The translations under genes and the position numbers were made by a program. A DNA stretch of 64,000 bases from positions 434,001-498,000 of the forward strand of contig NZ_CTEI01000002.1 of NCBI RefSeq assembly GCF_001368815.1. Direction: 5' to 3'. This stretch comes from Paraliobacillus sp. PM-2 (GTDB lineage Bacteria > Bacillota > Bacilli > Bacillales > Amphibacillaceae). This document shows, piece after piece, positions 1 to 10,648 of the stretch (position 1 is the stretch's first letter; every line of letters begins with the position of its first letter). The notes below the pieces were generated by a model, which saw only the letters and a list, made by a program, of their open reading frames with translations, was not told the origin of the DNA and did not search any database.

Positions 1-236
1 TGTGGCGTATAACTAATCGCACCTCGTTTGCCAGTAATCTCTTCTTGATCAAGCAAGAATGTACCATCATCCGGTTGAAGCATACCACCAATTAAGTGAA
101 AAAGTGTACTTTTGCCACTTCCAGAAGGTCCTAATATAGATACAAATTCACCATCTTTTACTGTAAAAGAGAGATGATCTAGTATCTTTTTATCATTAAA
201 TGATTTTGAAATATTTTTTGCTACTAATTCACTCAT
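1..236 (-). CDS. thiZ: ABC transporter ATP-binding protein ThiZ-type (partial)
   Basis: This is the N-terminal 78 residues of a nucleotide-binding ABC subunit; the gene runs off the left edge. It starts at ATG 236 with MSELVAKNISKSFNDKK, and the Walker A motif GPSGSGKST is visible at about residues 40-48. It overlaps the 3' end of the permease gene by 8 bases, so the two are probably translationally coupled. With the permease, the NMT1-type binding protein and the TPP riboswitch upstream, it should energise uptake of a thiamine pyrimidine precursor at the inner face of the membrane. The family is certain; the substrate is inferred from context. Confidence 0.85.
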   Translation of the reverse strand, partial: MSELVAKNISKSFNDKKILDHLSFTVKDGEFVSILGPSGSGKSTLFHLIGGMLQPDDGTFLLDQEEITGKRGAISYTP

Positions 237-1008
237 TGGTGTGCCTCCTCCCTTTTAGCAATACCTTTTCAAGTAACATGATTACTGTGAAAAATAGTAA
301 ACATAATATCATAATAAATCCAATCGCTACAAATACACGATCTGTTCGAAACGATGATTGGGCTAACGTCATATACACACCAATTCCTTTATTAGCGCCT
401 AGCCATTCAGATATAACAGCCCCCATTACACTATATGTGGCAGATATTTTTAGCCCTGAAAAAATTGCTGATAACGCATGTGGAAACTCTAATTTAACAA
501 AAAGCTGTCCTTTCGTCGCACCTGCCATTCGCATATAGTGGACAAGTTCAGGTGATGTTTGACGAAATCCGTCCAATGTTGCCACTACAATCGGAAAAAA
601 ACAAACGAGTGTAATAATGATAATTTTTGGTAATACACCAAAACCAAACCAAATAACAAGTAATGGCGCCAAAACAATAATCGGGATATTCTGCGAAAGA
701 ATTAATAATGGATAAATTGCTTGTCTAACTAACGGTAATAAATGCAAAATAATTGCTACAATTAAGCCAACACTAACACCAATTACTAGGCCACCGATAG
801 ACAAATAGGTGGTTGATACAAGGTGATGTGTATAGCTATCCCAACCTTTGATTGCCTCATTAAAGATATCTGTTGGTGCAGGCAAAAGCCATTTGGGAAT
901 AGAAAAGAATAGACTACTCCATTGCCAAATAAGCAAAATTACGATAATAACGATTACTGGACTATATCCCCTTAGTATTTTTTTCATAAATGAAAGGCGA
1001 TTCTGCAT
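229..1008 (-). CDS. thiX: ABC transporter permease ThiX-type
   Basis: This is a membrane permease of the BPD_transp_1 family (SsuC/TauC/ThiX group), about 259 residues with roughly six membrane segments. The cytoplasmic coupling (EAA-like) loop is near EFPHALSAIFSGLKISATY. The start is uncertain: the frame is open to a TTG at 1038, but I prefer ATG 1008 or ATG 987 (MKKILRGYSPV) because nothing conserved lies upstream; none of these has an ideally spaced ribosome site. The gene sits between the thiamine-binding protein and the ATPase in a riboswitch-controlled operon. It is probably the channel subunit for HMP or formylaminopyrimidine uptake. Confidence 0.85.
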   Translation of the reverse strand: MQNRLSFMKKILRGYSPVIVIIVILLIWQWSSLFFSIPKWLLPAPTDIFNEAIKGWDSYTHHLVSTTYLSIGGLVIGVSVGLIVAIILHLLPLVRQAIYPLLILSQNIPIIVLAPLLVIWFGFGVLPKIIIITLVCFFPIVVATLDGFRQTSPELVHYMRMAGATKGQLFVKLEFPHALSAIFSGLKISATYSVMGAVISEWLGANKGIGVYMTLAQSSFRTDRVFVAIGFIMILCLLFFTVIMLLEKVLLKGRRHTNE

Positions 1009-1040
1009 CAAAAAGAAACAAAATCGCCATTCCTCCAATC

Positions 1041-1331
1041 TTAACGATACTTTTCTGTCAACCTATCCATGGATGCACCATCCGGTTTGTAGAATACTTT
1101 CACCTGTGAAATCACACTTAAGCTCCCTAGTTCAATCATCTTTTGATTCATTTGTTCGATAACAGAGAATAATTCCGTTAATTCTCCTTCCATTGTTGTT
1201 TCTAATGGGTGAACGTTATATTTAACTCCAGATGCTTCAATCACACCAATTGCTGCATCTACAAGCGGAATCGTATCTCCACCGTTTTTTAGTTTTGGAA
1301 TAATTTGTATACTAACTAATGCATTTGCCAT
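1041..1331 (-). CDS. MTH1187/YkoF-family thiamine-binding protein
   Basis: This 96-residue protein belongs to the MTH1187/YkoF (DUF77) family of small ferredoxin-fold proteins, some of which bind thiamine or hydroxymethylpyrimidine. The conserved N-terminus ALVSIQIIPKL and the stretch GVKYNVHPLETTMEGE are typical. The ATG at 1331 is preceded by GGAAGGG with about 10 bases spacing, so I reject the TTG 21 bases upstream. It lies inside the thiamine transporter operon between thiY and thiX, which supports a ligand-buffering or delivery role. That role is inferred; the family call is firm. Confidence 0.85.
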   Translation of the reverse strand: MANALVSIQIIPKLKNGGDTIPLVDAAIGVIEASGVKYNVHPLETTMEGELTELFSVIEQMNQKMIELGSLSVISQVKVFYKPDGASMDRLTEKYR

Positions 1332-1355
1332 CCTACTCGTTCCCTTCCACAATCG

Positions 1356-2354
1356 TTATTTACTTTCAGGTAAAAATTCATTAGTAAATGCTTCTTCTGC
1401 ATCTAATTCTTCATCTAACAATCCATTTTCATACATCCAGCTTGCATAATTCTCCCAAACTTCTATATCTTGTATCCCCCATTTTCTTGCATCTGCTTGA
1501 TACTTAGGAGAAAGCCACTCTTGACTTGCCTTTACTAGTTCTGCATCTAAATCAGGGACAGCTTCTATTAATAGATCAGCTGCCTTTTCAGGATTATCTA
1601 TTGCAAATTGATATCCTTTGGAGACAGCACGAATAAATTTCTCAACCATTTTTGAATGATCTTGTATCATTGTTTCATTGGTGGTGATTACTGGCGTGTA
1701 GTAGTCAAGTTTATCTGAATAATCAGTTAAATACTGCATATTTAATTCCATTCCACGTAGTTCAGCCTCTACACCAGTCCATCCATAATAAATCCAAGCG
1801 AAATCAATATCTCGCTTTACGGCAGTAAAGAAGTCAGTATTCCCCATATTAACAATATTCACATCTTCAACACTGCCACCCTCTTGTTTCATTAATGAAT
1901 CAATCACTGCCGATTCAACTGGTGCTCCCCAACCACCATAGGTCTTTCCTGCAAAATCAGCTGGTGAAGTTATATTTTTGTCCACTGGTGAAGCGAAACC
2001 AGATGTATTATGTTGAATAATCGCAGCAATTGAAACGATTGGGATATCTTGTGTTCTTGCTTCTGTTATTTGTTCTTGTGCACTAATACCAAATGCCGCT
2101 TTTCCTGATGCAACTACTTGATCTGCACCTGATTCACCAGGTAATGTAATTTCTACATCTAACCCTTCTTCTTCAAAATAGCCTTTTGACTCTGCTACAT
2201 ACAAACCCGTGTGATTTGTATTCGGAGTCCAATCAAGCACCATTGTTACTTTTTCTAACGACTCACCTGTTTCTACTCCCTCATTTTCCTCGCTTGCACA
2301 ACCTGCAACGAAAAATAAAACAACTAAAACTAACAAACCTAACTTCTTTAACAC
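1356..2354 (-). CDS. thiY: ABC substrate-binding lipoprotein ThiY (NMT1/THI5-like)
   Basis: This is an extracellular solute-binding lipoprotein of the NMT1/THI5 family, which captures thiamine pyrimidine precursors for ThiXZ. A hydrophobic signal ends in the lipobox FVAGC near residue 19. The mature part holds the family motifs KVTMVLDWTPNTNHTGLYVA and GWGAPVESA. GTG 2354 lies 8 bases after GGGGGA, a better start than the TTG at 2360, which touches that site. It is the first gene of the operon, directly downstream of the TPP riboswitch and its terminator, so thiamine pyrophosphate should repress it. Confidence 0.9.
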   Translation of the reverse strand: MLKKLGLLVLVVLFFVAGCASEENEGVETGESLEKVTMVLDWTPNTNHTGLYVAESKGYFEEEGLDVEITLPGESGADQVVASGKAAFGISAQEQITEARTQDIPIVSIAAIIQHNTSGFASPVDKNITSPADFAGKTYGGWGAPVESAVIDSLMKQEGGSVEDVNIVNMGNTDFFTAVKRDIDFAWIYYGWTGVEAELRGMELNMQYLTDYSDKLDYYTPVITTNETMIQDHSKMVEKFIRAVSKGYQFAIDNPEKAADLLIEAVPDLDAELVKASQEWLSPKYQADARKWGIQDIEVWENYASWMYENGLLDEELDAEEAFTNEFLPESK

Positions 2355-2403
2355 GAACAATTCCCCCTTTTAAATTATAGAGGAACATATGATGCAACAC
2401 GAA

Positions 2404-2437
2404 AATAAAAAAGCACGCTAAGCGAGAGCTAGCGTGC
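2404..2437 (-). terminator. Intrinsic terminator of the TPP riboswitch
   Basis: Read on the minus strand, the arms GCACGCTA and TAGCGTGC form a hairpin followed by a T-run. It stands between the TPP aptamer and thiY, so it is the expression platform of the riboswitch: ligand binding should favour termination here. Confidence 0.85.
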
Positions 2438-2470
2438 ATATCTTTATCATATCACTAATGATTTACGTGT

Positions 2471-2575
2471 TCAGATATGTTCCCTACGCTGGTCTCAGCC
2501 AGATCAGGTTCCAAGGGTCAGTATCTATTGGATACAATCTCAACCGGCAACACCGGTCCCCCCACATGAAACAAC
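2471..2575 (-). promoter_or_regulatory. TPP (THI element) riboswitch
   Basis: The minus strand carries the hallmark TPP aptamer blocks: GGTTGAGAT (variant of the CTGAGA block), ACCCTTGGAACCTGATCTGG, and CCAGCGTAGGGAA, in the correct order and spacing. The optional P3 arm is the AT-rich hairpin between the first two blocks. A terminator follows before thiY, so control is probably by transcription attenuation. Confidence 0.95.
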
Positions 2576-2772
2576 CTATTTAATTTCTACACTATCCACT
2601 TTGCCATAGGACTAATATAAATGCAAGTTTTATTTGTTCTTTTAAAACTGATCTAACTATTTACTATATTCCTTGGATAACAGTGATACAGATTACCCGC
2701 CTTCCTTGTTTACTTCTATAAATCTTGATAAACTAAAATAGTTTTCTAGAAAGAAGGAATAAAAGGAGTTTT

Positions 2773-2952
2773 ATGATGCATCTTAAGAATTACATACAAA
2801 CTATTTTTGTGCTTTGTTTTTTCATTTTATTAATTGGTTGTGAATTACAATCTTCACCAAATACAACTACAGATCCCTCAAGTACCACCATTGAATCTAC
2901 AGAAAAGGTTGATGCAAAAGTAAAACGCGTTGTGGACGGTTTATCTCTATGA
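2773..2952 (+). pseudogene. Truncated thermonuclease-like lipoprotein gene
   Basis: A 59-codon ORF starts at ATG 2773 after AAAAGGAG. It has a lipoprotein signal (LLIGCELQSS), a Ser/Thr-rich linker, and then KVDAKVKRVVDG followed by three unrelated residues and a stop. The segment VKRVVDG matches the start of staphylococcal nuclease (SNase) domains, which normally continue VVDGDT with the first catalytic Asp. The gene breaks exactly there and the catalytic domain is absent downstream. I read it as a deletion remnant, possibly linked to the IS element about 140 bases away. It could still make a short lipoprotein. Confidence 0.65.
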
Positions 2953-3003
2953 ATACGCACAGATTAATATTGTACATAATTAAATAACATTATAATTTGA
3001 TAT

Positions 3004-3028
3004 AGAGCTATATAGCTCTTTTTTTATG
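3004..3028 (+). terminator. Small hairpin with T-run after the truncated nuclease
   Basis: AGAGCTATATAGCTCT is self-complementary and is followed by seven T residues on the plus strand. It is a plausible intrinsic terminator, perhaps that of the original nuclease gene, retained when the body of the gene was lost. Confidence 0.6.
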
Positions 3029-3156
3029 CAAAATATCTTGTACATATTTATTCGCATTGATAATATAGAGTAAGGATGTATCTGATATTATGTCAAGAAA
3101 ATGGACACAGCGAATAGGGAGAAAGTTGTTTTTCCCTACCGCGCTTCGCTTGCTGG

Positions 3157-3202
3157 CCTCTCTGGTAGGAGAAGGGATGTTTCCCTTCTCCTACCAGAGA
3201 GG
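3157..3202 (-). repeat. 21-bp perfect inverted repeat inside the IS end
   Basis: Two perfect 21-base arms (3157-3177 and 3182-3202) enclose a 4-base loop just past the orfB stop codon. The arms are built around CTCTCTGGTAGGAGAAGGGA. The hairpin probably terminates or protects transcripts at the IS edge; it lacks a long T-run. Confidence 0.75.
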
Positions 3203-3212
3203 ATAATATCTT

Positions 3213-4086
<874 letters not shown>

Positions 4087-4102
<16 letters not shown>

Positions 4103-4374
4103 GCGAAGATGCCCATAGCCTTTTTTAAGATAGCATTTTCCTCTTCTAGATCACGGATTCGTTTTTGTAGGTCATTTTCCATCTTTTTTTCACGTTGTAC
4201 ATTGCCACTACCAACGAAAGCATCATCCTTACCTTGATTATGTTTCTTCACCCAATTATGAAGAGTTTGTTCAGCTAAATCTAATTCCCGTGCAACTTCC
4301 GCAATTCTCTTGCCGTCCTCCTTCACCATATGGACTGCTTGTAATTTAAAATCTTTATCATATGTTTTTCTCAT
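4087..4374 (-). CDS. IS3-family transposase OrfA
   Basis: This 95-residue protein has an N-terminal helix-turn-helix (DFKLQAVHMVKEDGKRIAEV, LDLAEQTLHNWVKKH) that binds the IS ends, followed by a leucine-zipper-like coiled coil ending DLEEENAILKKAMGIFAKD. It is the standard OrfA size and layout of IS3-family elements. A slippery AAAAG lies 10 bases before its stop, in register to give the OrfAB fusion by -1 frameshifting. With orfB broken, OrfA alone may act as a repressor of the element. Confidence 0.9.
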
Positions 4375-4461
4375 TCTATGGACACTCCTGTAAAATTGTT
4401 AATTTCATTATACTTGAAATTCTCCCAATTTACCGTGTCCAATTTTTAGACTAACATCAAA

Positions 4462-5592
4462 ATGCTAAAAAACCTTACCCATATCGATATAGATAAAATA
4501 TCTGAAAAAGTTGAAGAAAACATTAACGCAAAAATGAATAAAGCAGAAGATGTAGATTTCTTACCTACAAAGGGGTACCTCATAGTAGAAGATGCCGCAG
4601 AAATTCTTGGAATTAAAAAGGATACACTAAGGACATTTTTAAGAAACGGTAAACTTCCTTCAGCTATTAAAATAAAAAATAAATGGTATATCCCTAAAGA
4701 AGAATTACAATCTTATCAAGAAAGGATAAATAATTGGTACAAAAATAGACCAAAAGTAATGAAGAATATTCCTTCTCTGAAAGGTTATTTAACAATGATA
4801 GAAGTTTCTGCGCAAATAAATTTAAGTAGATCAAAAACCTCAGTACTTTTAAATAACGAAGCGTTTCCAAATGCGATAAAAATAAAGAATAAGTGGTTTA
4901 TTCCTGAAGAAGATATTTTGTTTTACCTTGAAAATAAAAAAGACGGAAAACAGGTCCCATCCCCATTTACTAAAGAAAATCAGCTATTAAAAGGACATTT
5001 AACAACAAAGGAAATTTCTGAACGCATTCATTTAGGTCCATCAAGAATTCTAGTACTTATACACAATGGTTCATTTCCGAATGCTGTAAAATTTAACGGG
5101 AGATGGTTTATTCCCGAAGAGGATCTCCAACTCTACAGTAAACAAAGAAATAATTTACTTATGAACAAAAACAAGCAATCTAATATCCAATCCCTGAAAG
5201 GTTATTTAACCACAAATGAAGTAGCGAAGGAACTAAATATTTCTAATGGTGGTGTAACCGCTCTAATAAAAAACGGAAAATTAAGAGATGCTATAAAGCA
5301 CAAGAAAATATGGATGATTCCTGAATCAAGTTTAACCGAGAGAAAAAAACAAATAGAAAATAAACGAATTAGTATAACAAAACCCGATATGATCAATGAA
5401 CTAAATCATTTGATTAATAATGTTCAAAATGAAGAACATCTTAAAGAAACAATAAGGTTGTACTCTGATTTTACAATAACTAGATTAAATGCAACAAATG
5501 GCAGGATAAATAATGTACGAAGAGTTTTTAATCATCTAAGAAAAATCTTTTATGATATTATCATCAAAAGGTTTTATACAAGAATTAAATAA
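4462..5592 (+). CDS. Protein with four tandem excisionase-like HTH domains
   Basis: I do not recognise a named family for the whole 376-residue protein. It contains four copies of a MerR/excisionase-type winged helix at a near-exact 70-residue period. The repeat starts KGYL or KGHL at residues 37, 107, 177 and 246, continues through a helix-turn-helix (DAAEILGIKKDTLRTFLRNG in copy 1), and ends in NKWYIPKEEL or NRWFIPEEDL-type strands. Such domains bind DNA as Xis/MerR wings, so an array could read a repeated site. The start is only 6-9 bases beyond the IS end, has no ribosome site, and may be an artificial truncation. The C-terminus overlaps the next ORF out of frame by 41 bases. Confidence 0.7.
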   Translation: MLKNLTHIDIDKISEKVEENINAKMNKAEDVDFLPTKGYLIVEDAAEILGIKKDTLRTFLRNGKLPSAIKIKNKWYIPKEELQSYQERINNWYKNRPKVMKNIPSLKGYLTMIEVSAQINLSRSKTSVLLNNEAFPNAIKIKNKWFIPEEDILFYLENKKDGKQVPSPFTKENQLLKGHLTTKEISERIHLGPSRILVLIHNGSFPNAVKFNGRWFIPEEDLQLYSKQRNNLLMNKNKQSNIQSLKGYLTTNEVAKELNISNGGVTALIKNGKLRDAIKHKKIWMIPESSLTERKKQIENKRISITKPDMINELNHLINNVQNEEHLKETIRLYSDFTITRLNATNGRINNVRRVFNHLRKIFYDIIIKRFYTRIK

Positions 5593-6076
5593 ACCAATTT
5601 TAAGGGACTTTGGTTACACTGATAGTGATGAAATTTATTTTCCTAATATTGAAAGTATTTTCGAAGCATATGGGAATGATAAACAGCGAATTATCAACGA
5701 ATTGCATCATTTTGAATTGTTATTTCAAGAATTATACGAAGAAAGAAATACTCTAAAGGAAAAGTTGAATAAATTGGAGGAATTTAAGGGGAGATTAGAA
5801 GAATATACAAAGGGTATTGCTAGTTTACAACAAGAGGTAAAACACTATAAAACTTTATATGAGCAGAAAATTGTATCTAGTGTAGAACCACATCTGAGAG
5901 ATGAACTAGGCATAAAAGACAACTTACTTGATTTTAATTCCAATATTGAAAAGAACGTTTCATTAAATAACCTTCAACAGCATTTCCCGAAACTTCAGGA
6001 TGATGATGACAATATTGAAAATACTAGAAATGAAAACATGAAAGAATTAAAGAATCAATTTAAAAACTTATTTTAA
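5552..6076 (+). CDS. Coiled-coil protein overlapping the tandem-HTH gene
   Basis: This 174-residue ORF of unknown function has a long charged coiled coil (about residues 45-105, ELLFQELYEERNTLKEKLNK onward) and an acidic, Asn-rich C-terminus. It overlaps the preceding gene by 41 bases in another frame and has no ribosome site before ATG 5552. It may therefore be the real C-terminus of that protein after a frameshift near 5550, or be translationally coupled. A strong 16-bp-stem terminator follows at 6133, so the pair forms one transcription unit. HTH plus coiled coil suggests a DNA-binding oligomer from a mobile element; this is inference. Confidence 0.55.
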   Translation: MILSSKGFIQELNKPILRDFGYTDSDEIYFPNIESIFEAYGNDKQRIINELHHFELLFQELYEERNTLKEKLNKLEEFKGRLEEYTKGIASLQQEVKHYKTLYEQKIVSSVEPHLRDELGIKDNLLDFNSNIEKNVSLNNLQQHFPKLQDDDDNIENTRNENMKELKNQFKNLF

Positions 6077-6132
6077 AAAATGAGGTTTTGAGAATTTTGA
6101 AAAGATTCTATTTTACTTGATGGTTAAACGTC

Positions 6133-6172
6133 AAATAACCCATTATCCCAAACTCAGGATAATGGGTTATTT
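6133..6172. terminator. Bidirectional terminator, 16-bp perfect stem
   Basis: AAATAACCCATTATCC (6133-6148) pairs perfectly with GGATAATGGGTTATTT (6157-6172). A/T tracts on both sides let it work in either direction. It ends the tandem-HTH/coiled-coil unit. Confidence 0.85.
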
Positions 6173-6213
6173 AACGATTACTAAAAAACAAAGATATCCC
6201 ATATCAACATATT

Positions 6214-6426
6214 TCAATTGCACATCCAGAAATACAAGATCAAGAGAAATCCGATGAAGCCAAAAAATACTATCTTAAATGTAGCCTCGGATACTGTATT
6301 ATCATAAGGGTTGCCTTTATCACTTAGAGAACGTTCAATATTATTATTGGCGCTTAACAGTTCATCAATTGCGACATTCTTAAATTCAGAACCCCGATCT
6401 GCGTGAAATATTTTAACTGTTTCCAA
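6214..6426 (-). pseudogene. IS3-type transposase OrfB fragment
   Basis: About 50 residues of an rve integrase core remain: VKIFHADRGSEFKN (second catalytic Asp region) and IERSLSDKGNPYDNTVSEAT, where the catalytic Glu is expected. After TFK the sequence becomes an unrelated hydrophobic tail, so the C-terminal third is lost. No upstream part of the transposase is present on the minus strand. It differs clearly from the orfB at 3213, so it is a second, older element. Confidence 0.75.
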
Positions 6427-6448
6427 TGACTGGTTAACCGATTGATTA

Positions 6449-6534
6449 TTGCGGATGAATTAAGCCACTTATGCGGTGTTTTGAGCCAGTCATTGCGGAT
6501 AAATGAGCCACCAATTGCGGTACAGAGAGCCACT
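6449..6534. repeat. Four 22-bp tandem repeats resembling IS21-family ends
   Basis: Four imperfect units with GCGG at 6451, 6473, 6495 and 6517 are spaced exactly 22 bp. The consensus is roughly ATTGCGGATNNATNAGCCAC. A further GAGCCAC occurs near 6560 off-register. Multiple short repeats at element ends are characteristic of IS21-family insertion sequences, where they bind the transposase. No istA/istB coding sequence is visible nearby, so this appears to be an orphan end. Confidence 0.6.
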
Positions 6535-6539
6535 AATAG

Positions 6540-7114
6540 AAATGCTCATTTATAGAATAGAGCCACAGCCACAGCGTAGCTGCTTGCCATTGACTGTAAC
6601 GCCCGATTCTTAGCAGACGGTGGAAGGTGTTGGGGCCCCACCAGCGAATGCTTAGAATCGATTTGCCCTTACTTCATCAAGATTGACATTGTCATGTAGC
6701 GACGATTTTGTAACCCATTAAAGTATAGGTGTACTGATAACTTGAAAGAATCTGCGTTATCGTATTCGGAAATGTGATAATTGCTTCAAAATTAGTGGCT
6801 CCAGCTGAACAGCGGTTCACGCCTTCCATATAAGCTTGATCACCATGTCGGTTAAGCGTACTATCTTGTAGTTTTTTCATTCAACTCTTAACTGACTCAC
6901 AAGCCCAGTAATCTTTATCTCGATCCATTTTGTTGAGAGGCTGGTTGGTCCTTAGGCACACCATTTGGATGAACTTTTCTTGGTTCAGTACAATTATTAA
7001 ATTTCGTATTTGTACCTTGTATTTTGTTTCAACAGTGCATTATTTCAATTTTTTTAAAAAAGGATCCTAGTTATACAAAGAAGTATTTGCCAATTCTACT
7101 CTGCAAAATTTGAG
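6540..7114. other. Degenerate intergenic DNA between mobile remnants and ABC gene
   Basis: I see no convincing gene here. A 62-codon minus-strand ORF (6692-6880) has no ribosome site and no recognisable motif; a short minus-strand stretch reads MDRDKDYWACESVKS then stop. The DNA is less AT-rich than the following cassette (for example GGTGTTGGGGCCCCACC near 6628), so it probably comes from decayed insertion elements. Confidence 0.4.
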
Positions 7115-9256
7115 TTAATCTTTTAATAATTTTACTAAGTTATTATTTTTAATTCCTTTTACTCCCCAAATGATAGAAATTGATACAATAATTATAACAA
7201 GTAGAGATAAAGAAACAACATTTTTAAATGTTAGTAAATTCAAAAATAGATGACCATACTTACTAGTATTTAAAAATATAAAGTCAATTAAAAAGGCTAA
7301 TAAATAAGCAATTAAGAAATAAATAGTAAAAATCAAACCATTTTCCAAAGATATTATTTTAATTATATCCCTTTTGGAAAATCCTTGACAAAATAAAATA
7401 GCGAATTCTTTAGTGCGGTCGAAAATATAACCTTTATTAAGGAAGATTACAACTAAACCAATAATTACAGCTATTATGATAGAACCTACAACTAAATTCC
7501 GAATTAGCGAGTGGTATACATATGATAAATCTCCATTCTTTAAATCATATTGTGAAATGAATTGATATTTAGGGAAAACATTCTTTAATTCATTATAGAC
7601 ACTATCAAAGTTTTCTTCATGGTCAACCACAACTATCATTTGGTCAAAACCTGTTCCCATAGCTTGTTTATAATGTTGTAAATCTTTAATAATATTTTCG
7701 GAATATTCTTCTGTTGCTCTATTTATTTTATAAGCTTGTACATGAAATTGATAAGCCTCTTCGTTCAATTTATCTTGGATATCATTTTGAGGAAAGTAAC
7801 CCACATAGATTGGATAAGATGGAGATAAATTAAATCTATATCCCGTATCATAAATACCGACAATTTTATATTCCTCATTAACCAAGTTATTTTTAGGAGA
7901 AGTAACATCTAATTCAATTGTACTATTAATTAAATTTGTATTATTTTCTGATTCAGATATCATAAAAGCATATAAATCTGGAATTAATATTTCTTTTGAG
8001 CCATCCTTAGGAAACTCTCCTGAAATTATATTTATATTATTAAAGTTATAATTATGAATGACTGAAGAAGGAACGTTTTGTGCTGTTAATGTAAAGGTTA
8101 TTGATTCTCCATTTCGAATTTGAACAAGATCTTTTCTTAAAAATGCAGGTATATTTTCATAGTCTAATCTATATTCAAACCGATTTCCTTCATGATCATA
8201 AAAAGATTGTATACCTTCCACTGTAAGTTCAATTTTATCGATATGTTGAATGTTTTCGACCTTTTTAATATCTTCATTTGAGAACCCAATTCGCTCCCCA
8301 TCATGACTCGCTAGAATATTATTCTTTTTCAAATCTTCTGATACTTCTGAGGTTAATTTCTGAGTGCTAAAGACAATGGATTTATTATCAACGCCTGAAA
8401 AAAAATTAGTAAATGAATCCAATGATGCCGCTTGAAAAGCAGTAAAACTTAAAATAAAAAGCATTAGAATAATTACAATTGGTACCCCTAATAAAAAAAT
8501 TCTTTTCATTTTACGAAATACACTTAAAAATGTATAGAGAAGGACATGTTTTTTTTGTTTAGTTTTTTCTGTTTGAAGTGATTTTTGTTTTGTTTCAACA
8601 TATTCATGTTCGTTTTTTGAATAAGTCTGAGTAATTTTCCCATTTTCTAATTTAAAAACTATATCTGCATACTCAAGAATTGAATCATCGTGTGTAATGA
8701 CAAAGAATGATATTCCTTTATTTTTTAATTTACTGATATAAACCATTATTTTATTGGTTGTCATTCCATCTAAATTTCCTGTAGGTTCATCTAGTAAGAT
8801 AATCTTTGGAGAACCTAAGACAGCACGACCTATTGCTACTCTTTGTTTTTGCCCCCCACTAATATTTTTTACAACTTCATCTTTTAACTCAAGTAAGTCC
8901 ATACTTTCTAGAACAGAATAAATATCTTCCCTTTTATAATCCCCTGATAGATAAAGATTTTCATAGACAGTTAATTGTTCGAATAATTTAAAATCTTGAA
9001 AAACCATTTTTATTTCATTGGTTCTTAGATGATCCCAATCTTGATTTTTGTATGCTTTGCTATCTTTTCCAAATAATTTATAATTACCTTGATAGTCATT
9101 ATCTAAACCGAATAATATATTAAATAAGGTGGTTTTGCCACTACCACTTTCACCAGTTAAGACATAAAGACTAGAAGGATTAGTTAATTGTAGGTTAATA
9201 TCATTTAAAACAACTTTATCATCAAAAAATTTTGTTAAATTTCTTAAATCTAACAT
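7115..9256 (-). CDS. One-piece ABC transporter, ATPase fused to FtsX-type permease
   Basis: This 713-residue protein has an N-terminal ABC ATPase: Walker A GESGSGKTT at 35-43, Q-loop VFQDF at 85-89, signature NISGGQ at 131, Walker B IILLDEPTG at about 152 and the H-loop ITHDD at 187-191. A membrane segment at about 252-275, a large extracytoplasmic domain (about 280-580) and three C-terminal membrane segments follow, the MacB/FtsX layout. It lies directly downstream of a small secreted-protein gene, separated only by a strong hairpin. Similar fused or paired transporters accompany lactococcin-972-type bacteriocins, so export or self-protection is the likely role. The gene is strikingly AT-rich, suggesting transfer. 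Confidence 0.85.
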   Translation of the reverse strand: MLDLRNLTKFFDDKVVLNDINLQLTNPSSLYVLTGESGSGKTTLFNILFGLDNDYQGNYKLFGKDSKAYKNQDWDHLRTNEIKMVFQDFKLFEQLTVYENLYLSGDYKREDIYSVLESMDLLELKDEVVKNISGGQKQRVAIGRAVLGSPKIILLDEPTGNLDGMTTNKIMVYISKLKNKGISFFVITHDDSILEYADIVFKLENGKITQTYSKNEHEYVETKQKSLQTEKTKQKKHVLLYTFLSVFRKMKRIFLLGVPIVIILMLFILSFTAFQAASLDSFTNFFSGVDNKSIVFSTQKLTSEVSEDLKKNNILASHDGERIGFSNEDIKKVENIQHIDKIELTVEGIQSFYDHEGNRFEYRLDYENIPAFLRKDLVQIRNGESITFTLTAQNVPSSVIHNYNFNNINIISGEFPKDGSKEILIPDLYAFMISESENNTNLINSTIELDVTSPKNNLVNEEYKIVGIYDTGYRFNLSPSYPIYVGYFPQNDIQDKLNEEAYQFHVQAYKINRATEEYSENIIKDLQHYKQAMGTGFDQMIVVVDHEENFDSVYNELKNVFPKYQFISQYDLKNGDLSYVYHSLIRNLVVGSIIIAVIIGLVVIFLNKGYIFDRTKEFAILFCQGFSKRDIIKIISLENGLIFTIYFLIAYLLAFLIDFIFLNTSKYGHLFLNLLTFKNVVSLSLLVIIIVSISIIWGVKGIKNNNLVKLLKD

Positions 9257-9276
9257 AGTATCCTCTTTTCTTGATC

Positions 9277-9321
9277 AACAAAAATCCATATTCTAATTTT
9301 ATAGAAATATGGATTTTTGTT
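9277..9321 (-). terminator. Hairpin/attenuator between secreted-protein and ABC genes
   Basis: Perfect 16-bp arms (AACAAAAATCCATATT at 9277 and AATATGGATTTTTGTT ending 9321) enclose a 13-base loop, with T-rich 3' flanks on both strands. On the minus strand it sits 11 bases after the small gene's stop and before the ABC gene. It should make the small product far more abundant than the transporter, with readthrough supplying the latter. Confidence 0.85.
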
Positions 9322-9331
9322 AATAATATTC

Positions 9332-9667
9332 TTAATGGTTGAAGTACGGTGTGAACCATACTTGAGGTGATGCTGCAATACGACCTTGCTTATCCTTTAA
9401 AGGTGCAGACCAATGAGTAGTCTCGTATGATTGATGACCACCAATTTGTTTAAAACTACTACTCAAAATTTCACTTCCGGCACCCCACACTTGAAATTGA
9501 TAGTAATATGGCTCTTCCATCGCGTTTGTTGCACCAATTCCTGAAGCCCCATTCACATCATAACCCCAACTAGATCTCCATGTACCTTGAGCAGCTGATG
9601 CAAAAATAGGTGAAAGTAAAATTAAAGTAGCTCCTAAAACAATAAAAATATATTTCCCTTTTTTCAT
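9332..9667 (-). CDS. Small secreted protein, bacteriocin-like (lactococcin-972-like?)
   Basis: This 111-residue precursor starts at ATG 9667 after AGAGGAGG. A classical signal peptide (KKGKYIFIVLGATLILLSPI) probably ends at FASA-AQ near residue 26, leaving about 85 residues. The mature part starts AQGTWRSSWGYDVNG, is rich in Trp, Tyr, Gly and Ser, has no Cys, and ends VWFTPYFNH. The GTW start, Gly/aromatic richness and aromatic C-terminus recall lactococcin 972, as does the neighbouring ABC gene, but I cannot confirm homology. Linkage with the transporter and a divergent membrane protein favours a toxin or bacteriocin; a secreted signal is an alternative. Confidence 0.6.
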   Translation of the reverse strand: MKKGKYIFIVLGATLILLSPIFASAAQGTWRSSWGYDVNGASGIGATNAMEEPYYYQFQVWGAGSEILSSSFKQIGGHQSYETTHWSAPLKDKQGRIAASPQVWFTPYFNH

Positions 9668-9689
9668 AAAATAACCTCCTCTCACAATT

Positions 9690-9734
9690 ATTATATATAT
9701 TAATCTTACAAAAAACAACAATATTTGGTATAAT
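9690..9734. promoter_or_regulatory. Divergent overlapping promoters of the secreted-protein cassette
   Basis: On the minus strand, -35 TTGTTT (9718-9713) and -10 TATAAT (9695-9690) have a 17-base spacer and drive the secreted-protein gene. On the plus strand, -35 TTACAA (9706-9711) and -10 TATAAT (9729-9734), also with a 17-base spacer, drive the membrane protein. The two -35 boxes are 1 base apart, so both genes probably share one regulator and compete for polymerase. Confidence 0.65.
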
Positions 9735-9796
9735 TATTCCATGAGTTAGATTATTTCAACTATATCATTAAAATCACTAGATGGAGGATCATTTTG

Positions 9797-10258
9797 ATGA
9801 AAAGATTGTCTTTTAAAAAAATTATAATTTTTTTCTTAATAAGTGCTATTGTATATTTAAGCTTATCTATTTTCTGGGGTATATACCAAGCTCAAAATAT
9901 TAGTGTAGTTCCTATTAAAGATATAAACAGCGTTAGTATATCTGCAGACAAAGTTTTATCAACCGAAACTGAAATTACTGGAGAAGTTAAAGTAGACCAT
10001 TTTGAAGCAGTATCCCACATAAATAAAGAAAAAGTTGATGAAGTATTGTATATCATCATTCATAAGCAACCTTCTTTTTCTAGTAAAAGTACATTTTCAA
10101 TTAATTTGGATGATGTAAATGATGTAGATTCTATTAATAATATCTTCATCATATCAGGTAATATATACACAGGAGAAGGAGCAGAGCAAGGTTATTCTCT
10201 TGGAGACTTAAAAAAAATTACTGATCAGGAAGTCATATGGGAACAACTTGTAAAGTAA
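9797..10258 (+). CDS. Membrane-anchored protein divergent from the secreted-protein gene
   Basis: This 153-residue protein of unknown family starts at ATG 9797, 7 bases after GGAGGA. It has a basic N-terminus, a single membrane segment at about residues 8-32 (IIIFFLISAIVYLSLSIFWG), and an extracytoplasmic domain of about 120 residues with a repeated Asp/Val pattern (NLDDVNDVDSINN). No catalytic motif is visible. Its promoter abuts that of the bacteriocin-like gene, so an immunity or anti-toxin role at the membrane surface is a reasonable hypothesis. It is equally AT-rich, so the three genes probably moved together. Confidence 0.65.
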   Translation: MKRLSFKKIIIFFLISAIVYLSLSIFWGIYQAQNISVVPIKDINSVSISADKVLSTETEITGEVKVDHFEAVSHINKEKVDEVLYIIIHKQPSFSSKSTFSINLDDVNDVDSINNIFIISGNIYTGEGAEQGYSLGDLKKITDQEVIWEQLVK

Positions 10259-10648
10259 TTGTTTTTTTGAAAACCCCCTCTCTCTGCGAAAGTTAAGTTA
10301 TTCAATGAAATAAGACTACAAATTCGATAAAGGTCAGGCAGAACGACTAAAGCGTTAATAGCTCAGCTGTCTCAATATCCATAGGCATGTGGTAAATTAA
10401 GTACAGAATTTTATAGTAAACATCTTTAAAGAACTATGACGGTAATTGCTCAATCAGAAATGGAAACTACTAATATGGAACAAAAACTCTATAGATATGT
10501 ACAACACCGAAAGTCATAAATACAAATTATGTACAAGAAAAGAAATGTGTACACTATTGATATTTCTTTTTTCATTATTGACACCAATGTTTAGGATAAA
10601 AAAATCAATGTGTACATTATATTTTATAGCGATAAGGAGGTTCATGCT
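10259..10648 (+). other. Intergenic stretch before the antiporter gene
   Basis: About 390 bases contain no supportable gene. Open stretches such as FDKGQAERLKR-stop near 10325-10355 and a 27-codon ORF at 10437-10520 (MTVIAQSEMETTNMEQKL) look like remnants without ribosome sites. The last 10 bases hold the AAGGAGG of the antiporter gene. Confidence 0.4.

Follow-up and report, generated by a model that had tools for sequence, protein, structure and literature searches.

A rare three-gene set of Paraliobacillus sp. PM-2 as a candidate bacteriocin cassette with a pump and a membrane-anchored ectodomain protein

Three neighbouring genes of Paraliobacillus sp. PM-2, lying in a stretch of 64,000 nucleotides (contig NZ_CTEI01000002.1, positions 434,001 to 498,000; hereafter the window), encode a small secreted peptide, an ATP-binding cassette (ABC) transporter and, divergently, a membrane protein with a predicted external domain. 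An earlier note, made from the letters of the DNA, had read this set as a bacteriocin-like cassette resembling the lactococcin 972 systems, and the locus raises the question of whether the three genes form a unit and what that unit does. Our results support the reading as bacteriocin-like: of the two findings that the note had named as telling against it, membership of the peptide in a known non-toxic family and lack of linkage elsewhere, neither was made. What is established is a linked, scattered three-gene unit from which the peptide is lost while its partners stay. From this we infer a toxin plus two-part immunity: the bacteriocin would probably be secreted by Sec without modification, and a MacB-like pump together with a membrane-anchored ectodomain would protect the cell that makes it. 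It probably represents a new, unnamed family of bacteriocin cassettes.

Thirteen distinct loci were compared, after near-identical copies on a Planococcus versutus plasmid and in genome G662 had been merged and G1300 had been left out (L051; its ABC protein is 26% identical, and it has neither membrane gene nor peptide). All three frames are open in 6 of the 13, namely the window, P. versutus, G1096, two loci in G1131 (G1131a and G1131b) and G1267. In an independent search with a peptide profile, 290 genomes from the Enterococcus lemanii order yielded 8 matches at E ≤ 0.01, 5 of them strong (∼1e-13 or better), and all five strong matches adjoin an ABC gene already found through the permease; the three genes are thus linked in other genomes. 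The weak matches (0.005-0.009) were set aside, one having five in-frame stops (L058), one running antisense to a larger open reading frame (ORF) (L059) and one lying inside a 332-aa frame (L060).

The set is rare and scattered, since few genomes matched in the peptide, permease and pattern searches. Two of the 159 genomes searched in the family matched the peptide, one of them being that of the window; among 397 of the order the window's own genome alone did so, and among 72,556 plasmids one did. With the peptides tried, P. versutus was the sole plasmid match; it carries the set on pPS15-1, and the chromosome of G662 has a near-identical copy. The permease had a wider reach: with the centre genomes counted, it matched 2 of 398 genomes of the class (the window's own and G662), none but G662 itself among 200 of the G662 family, 3 of 105 in the E. 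lemanii family and 9 of 295 in its order. O. contaminans and E. lemanii came from a pattern scan of named genomes, in which the patterns were so narrow (2 relatives among 256 stretches) that absence means little. Two narrow pattern scans of viral contigs gave no relatives. At an E limit of 1e-25, 56 phage records matched the ABC protein of P. versutus, none covering 80% of the query and, among the 20 matches listed, in the ATPase part only; the window membrane protein had no phage match. Four of 956 weaker plasmid ABC records (Paraclostridium, Listeria, Priestia and B. velezensis) showed no like annotated neighbours and no peptide-profile match. On the plasmid of Paraclostridium bifermentans (L016:1-2681), an annotated radical SAM/SPASM Clo7bot peptide maturase adjoins ABC genes. 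Searches of open-licence literature returned no paper on this three-gene set among the matches listed.

The peptide gene is broken at 4 of the 13 loci. In O. contaminans, a 1470-bp insertion sequence (IS) with a 442-aa transposase (L012:101-1429) lies within the signal sequence of the peptide; identical IS copies stand at two contig ends, one contig holding the peptide start and the divergent membrane gene and the other the peptide remainder and an intact ABC gene. Only the C-terminal part of the peptide is left in E. lemanii, that of G1281 has one in-frame stop and a poor signal, and that of G1191 has several stops and a shift. Moreover, a six-frame profile search found no peptide in G1184, G1337 or G1396. 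The ABC gene is intact at 12 of the 13 loci, as is the membrane gene, also at 12. A dead or missing peptide accompanies two intact partners at 5 loci, and an intact peptide accompanies a broken partner at none. Purifying selection acts on the ABC and membrane genes: the ratios of nonsynonymous to synonymous substitution rates (dN/dS) were 0.164 and 0.243, respectively, between G1281 and G1191, where both peptide genes are dead, although such pairwise values average in the time before peptide death. Between the window and O. contaminans they were 0.278 and 0.383, with 0.497 for the peptide part (101 codons). Loss of the peptide with its partners kept is what a toxin plus immunity predicts, on numbers that are small and partly biased.

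In the window, the peptide gene is followed on the minus strand by a hairpin and then by the ABC gene, with the membrane gene divergent on the plus strand. The membrane gene is likewise divergent throughout the clade formed by the window, O. contaminans, G1281, G1191 and G1267 (ABC tree, support of 100/100). The order is membrane-peptide-ABC on one strand in P. versutus, G1096, G1131a and the decayed E. lemanii locus, and peptide-membrane-ABC in G1131b. Because the layout is divergent in the window clade and unidirectional in the other peptide-bearing loci, it is inherited within the clade, and the linkage is independent of it. The frames of the membrane and ABC genes share 4 bases in G1184 and in G1337 and 1 base in G1131b, which argues that the two proteins work together. 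Identities between the window and G1267, from the order of E. lemanii, are 73.8% (ABC), 57.7% (membrane) and 62.2% (peptide), compared to 44%, 24% and 35%, respectively, with P. versutus, a difference that fits horizontal transfer.

The secreted, cysteine-free, aromatic-rich protein, the one-piece ATPase/permease, the single-pass membrane protein and the strong hairpin after the peptide gene were all borne out as the note had described them. The window peptide, the only one for which hydropathy was computed, has a single hydrophobic segment (residues 4-27), ending by eye in an ASA/A-like site, and 15 of the 85 residues in its assumed mature part (9551 Da) are F, W or Y. No cysteine occurs in any of the seven family sequences, and by eye all six intact members have a Sec-type signal-like N terminus. 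The seven sequences align over their full length, with invariant A-x-G-x-W-x-S, D-x-N, S, G, V, a late G and a C-terminal P-x-F. No Pfam or NCBIfam match beyond chance level was obtained for the peptide at E values up to 10 (the best in these scans was 0.035, to PepA), and nothing was obtained in PHROGs (best, 0.64). Sequence searches of solved structures with the peptide and the ectodomain gave chance-level matches only, and AlphaFold models of three peptides, with a mean predicted local distance difference test (pLDDT) value of 43, were too poor for a fold search.

The ABC protein joins a PF00005 ATPase domain (residues 17-159; 110.7 bits, cut-off of 25) to a PF02687 FtsX domain (residues 591-704; 40 bits, cut-off of 25.5). 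By hydropathy, it has four hydrophobic segments (246-264, barely above the threshold, 580-613, 631-650 and 670-704) and a large external domain at approximately 265-580, between the first and the second. This is the make-up of a MacB/FtsX-type protein, with both domains above curated cut-offs and one transmembrane (TM) segment, a large external domain and three TM segments as judged by hydropathy. BceB was the best solved-structure match of the permease profile (E of 0.011), and the permease also matched phrog_6434, a PHROG family of unknown function (4.6e-9). Kinship of the permease with DUF1430 was looked for and not found (probability of 0.9%; 4 versus 7 hydrophobic segments).

The membrane protein has one hydrophobic segment (residues 3-31), as do its relatives at their N termini, and its C-terminal part would lie outside the cell. 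An alternative TTG start is found at 9794, and the O. contaminans frame starts at TTG. Six aligned members share G62, F69-E70, S73, Y85, I116 and S120-G121 (window numbering). Searches at E of 10 gave no Pfam or NCBIfam match, and PHROGs gave nothing (best, 0.056); AlphaFold models of two sequences (pLDDT of 48) were too poor for a fold search. In G1131b, from the E. lemanii family, the corresponding 230-aa protein (L031:3786-4478) consists of a helix-turn-helix (HTH) domain (HTH_3, 2.9e-14), a hydrophobic segment and an ectodomain 30% identical to that of the window. This appears to be the architecture of a natural membrane one-component regulator, and it suggests either that the domain senses a ligand or that an immunity protein arose from a sensor. 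Tentatively, the ectodomain of this candidate bacteriocin family might be a receptor for the peptide, serving immunity when standalone and direct sensing when fused to the HTH domain, as in G1131b; a one-component regulator would then let the producer read its own toxin at the membrane and adjust the amounts of pump and toxin accordingly.

The window hairpin reaches −23.3 kcal/mol (z of −6.3; none of 200 shuffles as good), and a simple terminator scan called no site at it. A stem with a U-run separates the peptide gene from the next gene at 7 of the 8 loci checked, the window included, its sequence being unrelated between subgroups. The z values at the others were −7.0 (P. versutus), −3.6 (G1096), −3.1 (G1131a), −3.2 (G1281), −2.2 (G1131b) and −1.3 (G1267), the last corresponding to chance level (17 of 200 shuffles as good). 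In O. contaminans, the eighth locus, just a 14-base gap stands where the hairpin would be. An attenuator that holds expression of the pump below that of the toxin would be expected to give this pattern. The plus-strand promoter scored 10/12; that on the minus strand has a perfect −10 and was not listed by the promoter scan. The earlier placement of the two −35 boxes 1 base apart is correct for the letters read by hand (9711/9713), and it depends on −35 calls that are weak. Regulators adjoin the set elsewhere, an RNPP-type protein in P. versutus (RNPP_C, 3.5e-94), an Rgg-like one in G1096 (Rgg_C, 6.9e-7) and an HTH_3 protein plus a LytTR response regulator in G1131b. Neighbours of these kinds are usual for bacteriocin and bacteriocin-resistance loci. 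In the peptide-free G1184 (L048:137-8260), an OmpR-type response regulator and kinase lie directly upstream of the membrane and ABC genes, and a second membrane protein nearby has a weak match to TIGR01654 (bacteriocin-associated 7-TM; 41.8 bits against a cut-off of 189); L048 is a possible compound resistance locus.

The cassette would work as follows. Sec would export the peptide, with removal of the signal near Ala-Ser-Ala/Ala, and the unmodified aromatic-rich protein of about 85 residues may attack the envelope of Gram-positive cells nearby. Given the Sec-type signal of the peptide, export probably does not require the ABC protein; as a MacB/FtsX-type pump, this protein could instead drive the peptide off the membrane or off its target and so protect the producer, while the anchored ectodomain would bind or present the peptide outside the membrane. 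A comparable division of labour is that of LanI and LanFEG. Protection probably comes from the ABC and membrane proteins together, and not from the membrane gene alone, to which the earlier note had assigned immunity. The position of the hairpin 3' of the peptide gene suggests that more peptide than pump may be made.

Several points weigh against a toxin with immunity, besides the averaging inherent in the dN/dS values. No family or solved fold backs toxicity of the peptide in the profile and solved-structure searches. The ABC gene of E. lemanii is also broken, being split over two contigs, and the membrane gene of G1396 is in pieces. An asymmetry of 5 to 0 is a small one (one-sided sign test, 0.03), the three loci without a peptide may have lacked it from the start, and most loci were found via the permease, which biases the sample toward intact permeases. 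The top NCBIfam model for the ATPase in all five proteins scanned was TIGR03608, the lactococcin 972 export ABC protein, which favours the bacteriocin reading, but its scores were 80 to 96 bits under its cut-off and just 1 to 20 above the next model, mostly FtsE; the lactococcin 972 ATPase used as a yardstick itself reached 250.2 against the cut-off of 254.85. Finally, no regulator gene was recognised adjoining the set in the window.

Some of these observations could also be accommodated by other explanations. The three genes might be a sensing and detoxification set for envelope stress, with the peptide as an extracellular accessory (a decoy or a pheromone-like ligand) and not a toxin. The HTH fusion in G1131b indicates that the ectodomain can be part of a sensor, and the two-component system upstream of the peptide-free pair in G1184 recalls the BceRS-BceAB resistance modules, in which a two-component system accompanies the ABC transporter. 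However, the gene for a decoy or ligand is not expected to be lost repeatedly while receptor and pump stay under selection, and no strong peptide match among the 290 genomes stood without an ABC gene (0 of 5); we therefore regard this explanation as unlikely. That the ABC protein exports or releases the peptide as its substrate, with the membrane protein as an accessory, is very improbable. Peptide and ABC genes do share a strand at all six intact loci, adjacent or with just the membrane gene between them, and the nearest ATPase model is named a putative bacteriocin export transporter, but the Sec-type signals at those six loci make a dedicated exporter unnecessary, and in G1184 and G1337 the membrane and ABC genes are present although no peptide was detected; these two genes are also still conserved where the peptide is dead.

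The remaining alternative is a highly divergent member of the lactococcin 972 family, with which the set shares the logic of its parts, a Sec-secreted cysteine-free peptide and ABC-type membrane genes; Lcn972 itself has a Sec-type leader and folds as a beta sandwich. In addition to the first rank of TIGR03608, a lactococcin 972 peptide was the top non-member match of the peptide profile in 22 stretches (E of 0.11), and a direct search of three such peptides gave one at 10.2 bits (E of 1e-4 in a tiny set, over the signal and first half). Against this, none of six peptides scanned (that of G1267 was left out) matched PF09683 or the lactococcin models of Pfam and NCBIfam at E values up to 10, and no PF09683 match exists in the window's genome. 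Alignment to the three lactococcin 972 peptides with hhalign (L019, L033 and L035; L034 was omitted for a stop) gave a probability of 3% over 8 signal-sequence columns, and the permease is unlike DUF1430. We consider such membership quite improbable, in line with the earlier remark that the peptide was no clear member. A Sec-secreted bacteriocin with two-part protection remains the preferred reading; if true, the secreted, unmodified antibacterial proteins of Gram-positive bacteria would be joined by a family that has no name as yet, with a defined protection module found both with and without the toxin. The combination of a pump with a small ectodomain protein, and the HTH fusion, would bear on resistance to Sec-secreted bacteriocins of the lactococcin 972 type and on whether a producer senses its own bacteriocin directly.

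Table 1. Features of the candidate cassette and its surroundings (window positions)
Feature	Position	Strand	Remark
Secreted cysteine-free peptide, 111 aa (signal ∼1-26, mature part ∼85 aa); candidate bacteriocin	9332-9667	−	
One-piece ABC ATPase plus FtsX permease, 713 aa; candidate immunity pump	7115-9256	−	
Membrane protein of 153 aa with one TM segment and a predicted external domain; candidate for immunity or sensing	9797-10258	+	
AT-rich hairpin and U-run in the gap from peptide gene to ABC gene; possible read-through attenuator	∼9274-9324	−	
Putative peptide promoter, TTGTTT-17-TATAAT, weak −35	9690-9718	−	By eye; identical letters in O. contaminans
Putative extended −10 promoter of the membrane gene, CTTACA-18-TATAAT	9705-9734	+	Promoter scan
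Stretch of ∼8.0 kb lacking at the corresponding site of congener G107, which has 142 bases instead	2640-10648		

The genomic setting also agrees with the earlier description of an AT-rich set flanked by mobile remnants (Table 1). The G+C content of the cassette is 27.8%, against 33.9% window-wide in this 2.93-Mb genome, and only 1 of 305 overlapping stretches of the same length is equally low. IS3-family matches lie at 3216-3767, 4090-4374 and 6217-6426. In the alignment to G107, window positions 1-2639 and 10649 onward map to stretches 142 bases apart, leaving the extra DNA in the window; congener G106 was uninformative, as neither the membrane gene nor the flanking antiporter was found there. 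An IS3-family element is seen at 3213-4374, in which two ORFs (3743-4039 and 3213-3767) apparently divide the second transposase reading between them. Inside the island, 4462-5592 encodes a protein of 376 aa, four stretches of which match a single HTH family (HTH and excisionase matches in PHROGs), apparently an unusual multi-unit DNA-binding protein.

Among known systems, those of lactococcin 972 and streptococcin B are the neighbours in function. In PMC11796350 and PMC4055356, the parts dealing with these loci (lcn972-orf2-orf3 and scbABC) describe a peptide gene followed by two ABC-type membrane genes with presumed immunity or transport roles, and a family acting on lipid II and septum formation; according to the part of PMC11796350 concerned, the roles of the B and C genes are unverified in any lactococcin 972 locus. 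The present set resembles them in its Sec-type leader, its cysteine-free peptide and the linkage of the peptide gene to ABC-type membrane genes. It differs in the absence of a peptide family match, in an additional membrane-anchored ectodomain protein, divergent in one clade, and in its fused ATPase-permease with 4 segments, whereas the yardstick locus (B. velezensis, L019) has a 7-segment DUF1430/TIGR01654 protein and a separate TIGR03608 ATPase; the fusion is indeed unusual for that family, as the note had it. The cassette may work like lactococcin 972 systems, yet on the tests run it is not a member.

With the MacB/FtsX-type (ABC3) transporters, BceAB included, the pump shares an ATPase of the FtsE/LolD/MacB kind, an FtsX domain and a large external domain. 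Unlike them, its permease belongs to a separate subfamily, for which Pfam has no name other than FtsX, and no MacA-like partner was seen; BceB has 10 TM segments. The peptide differs from lantibiotics in lacking cysteine, and no modification genes were recognised nearby. Nevertheless, in function alone the proposed protection may be likened to lantibiotic immunity by LanI and LanFEG, in which an anchored outer-surface protein and an ABC pump together protect the producer.
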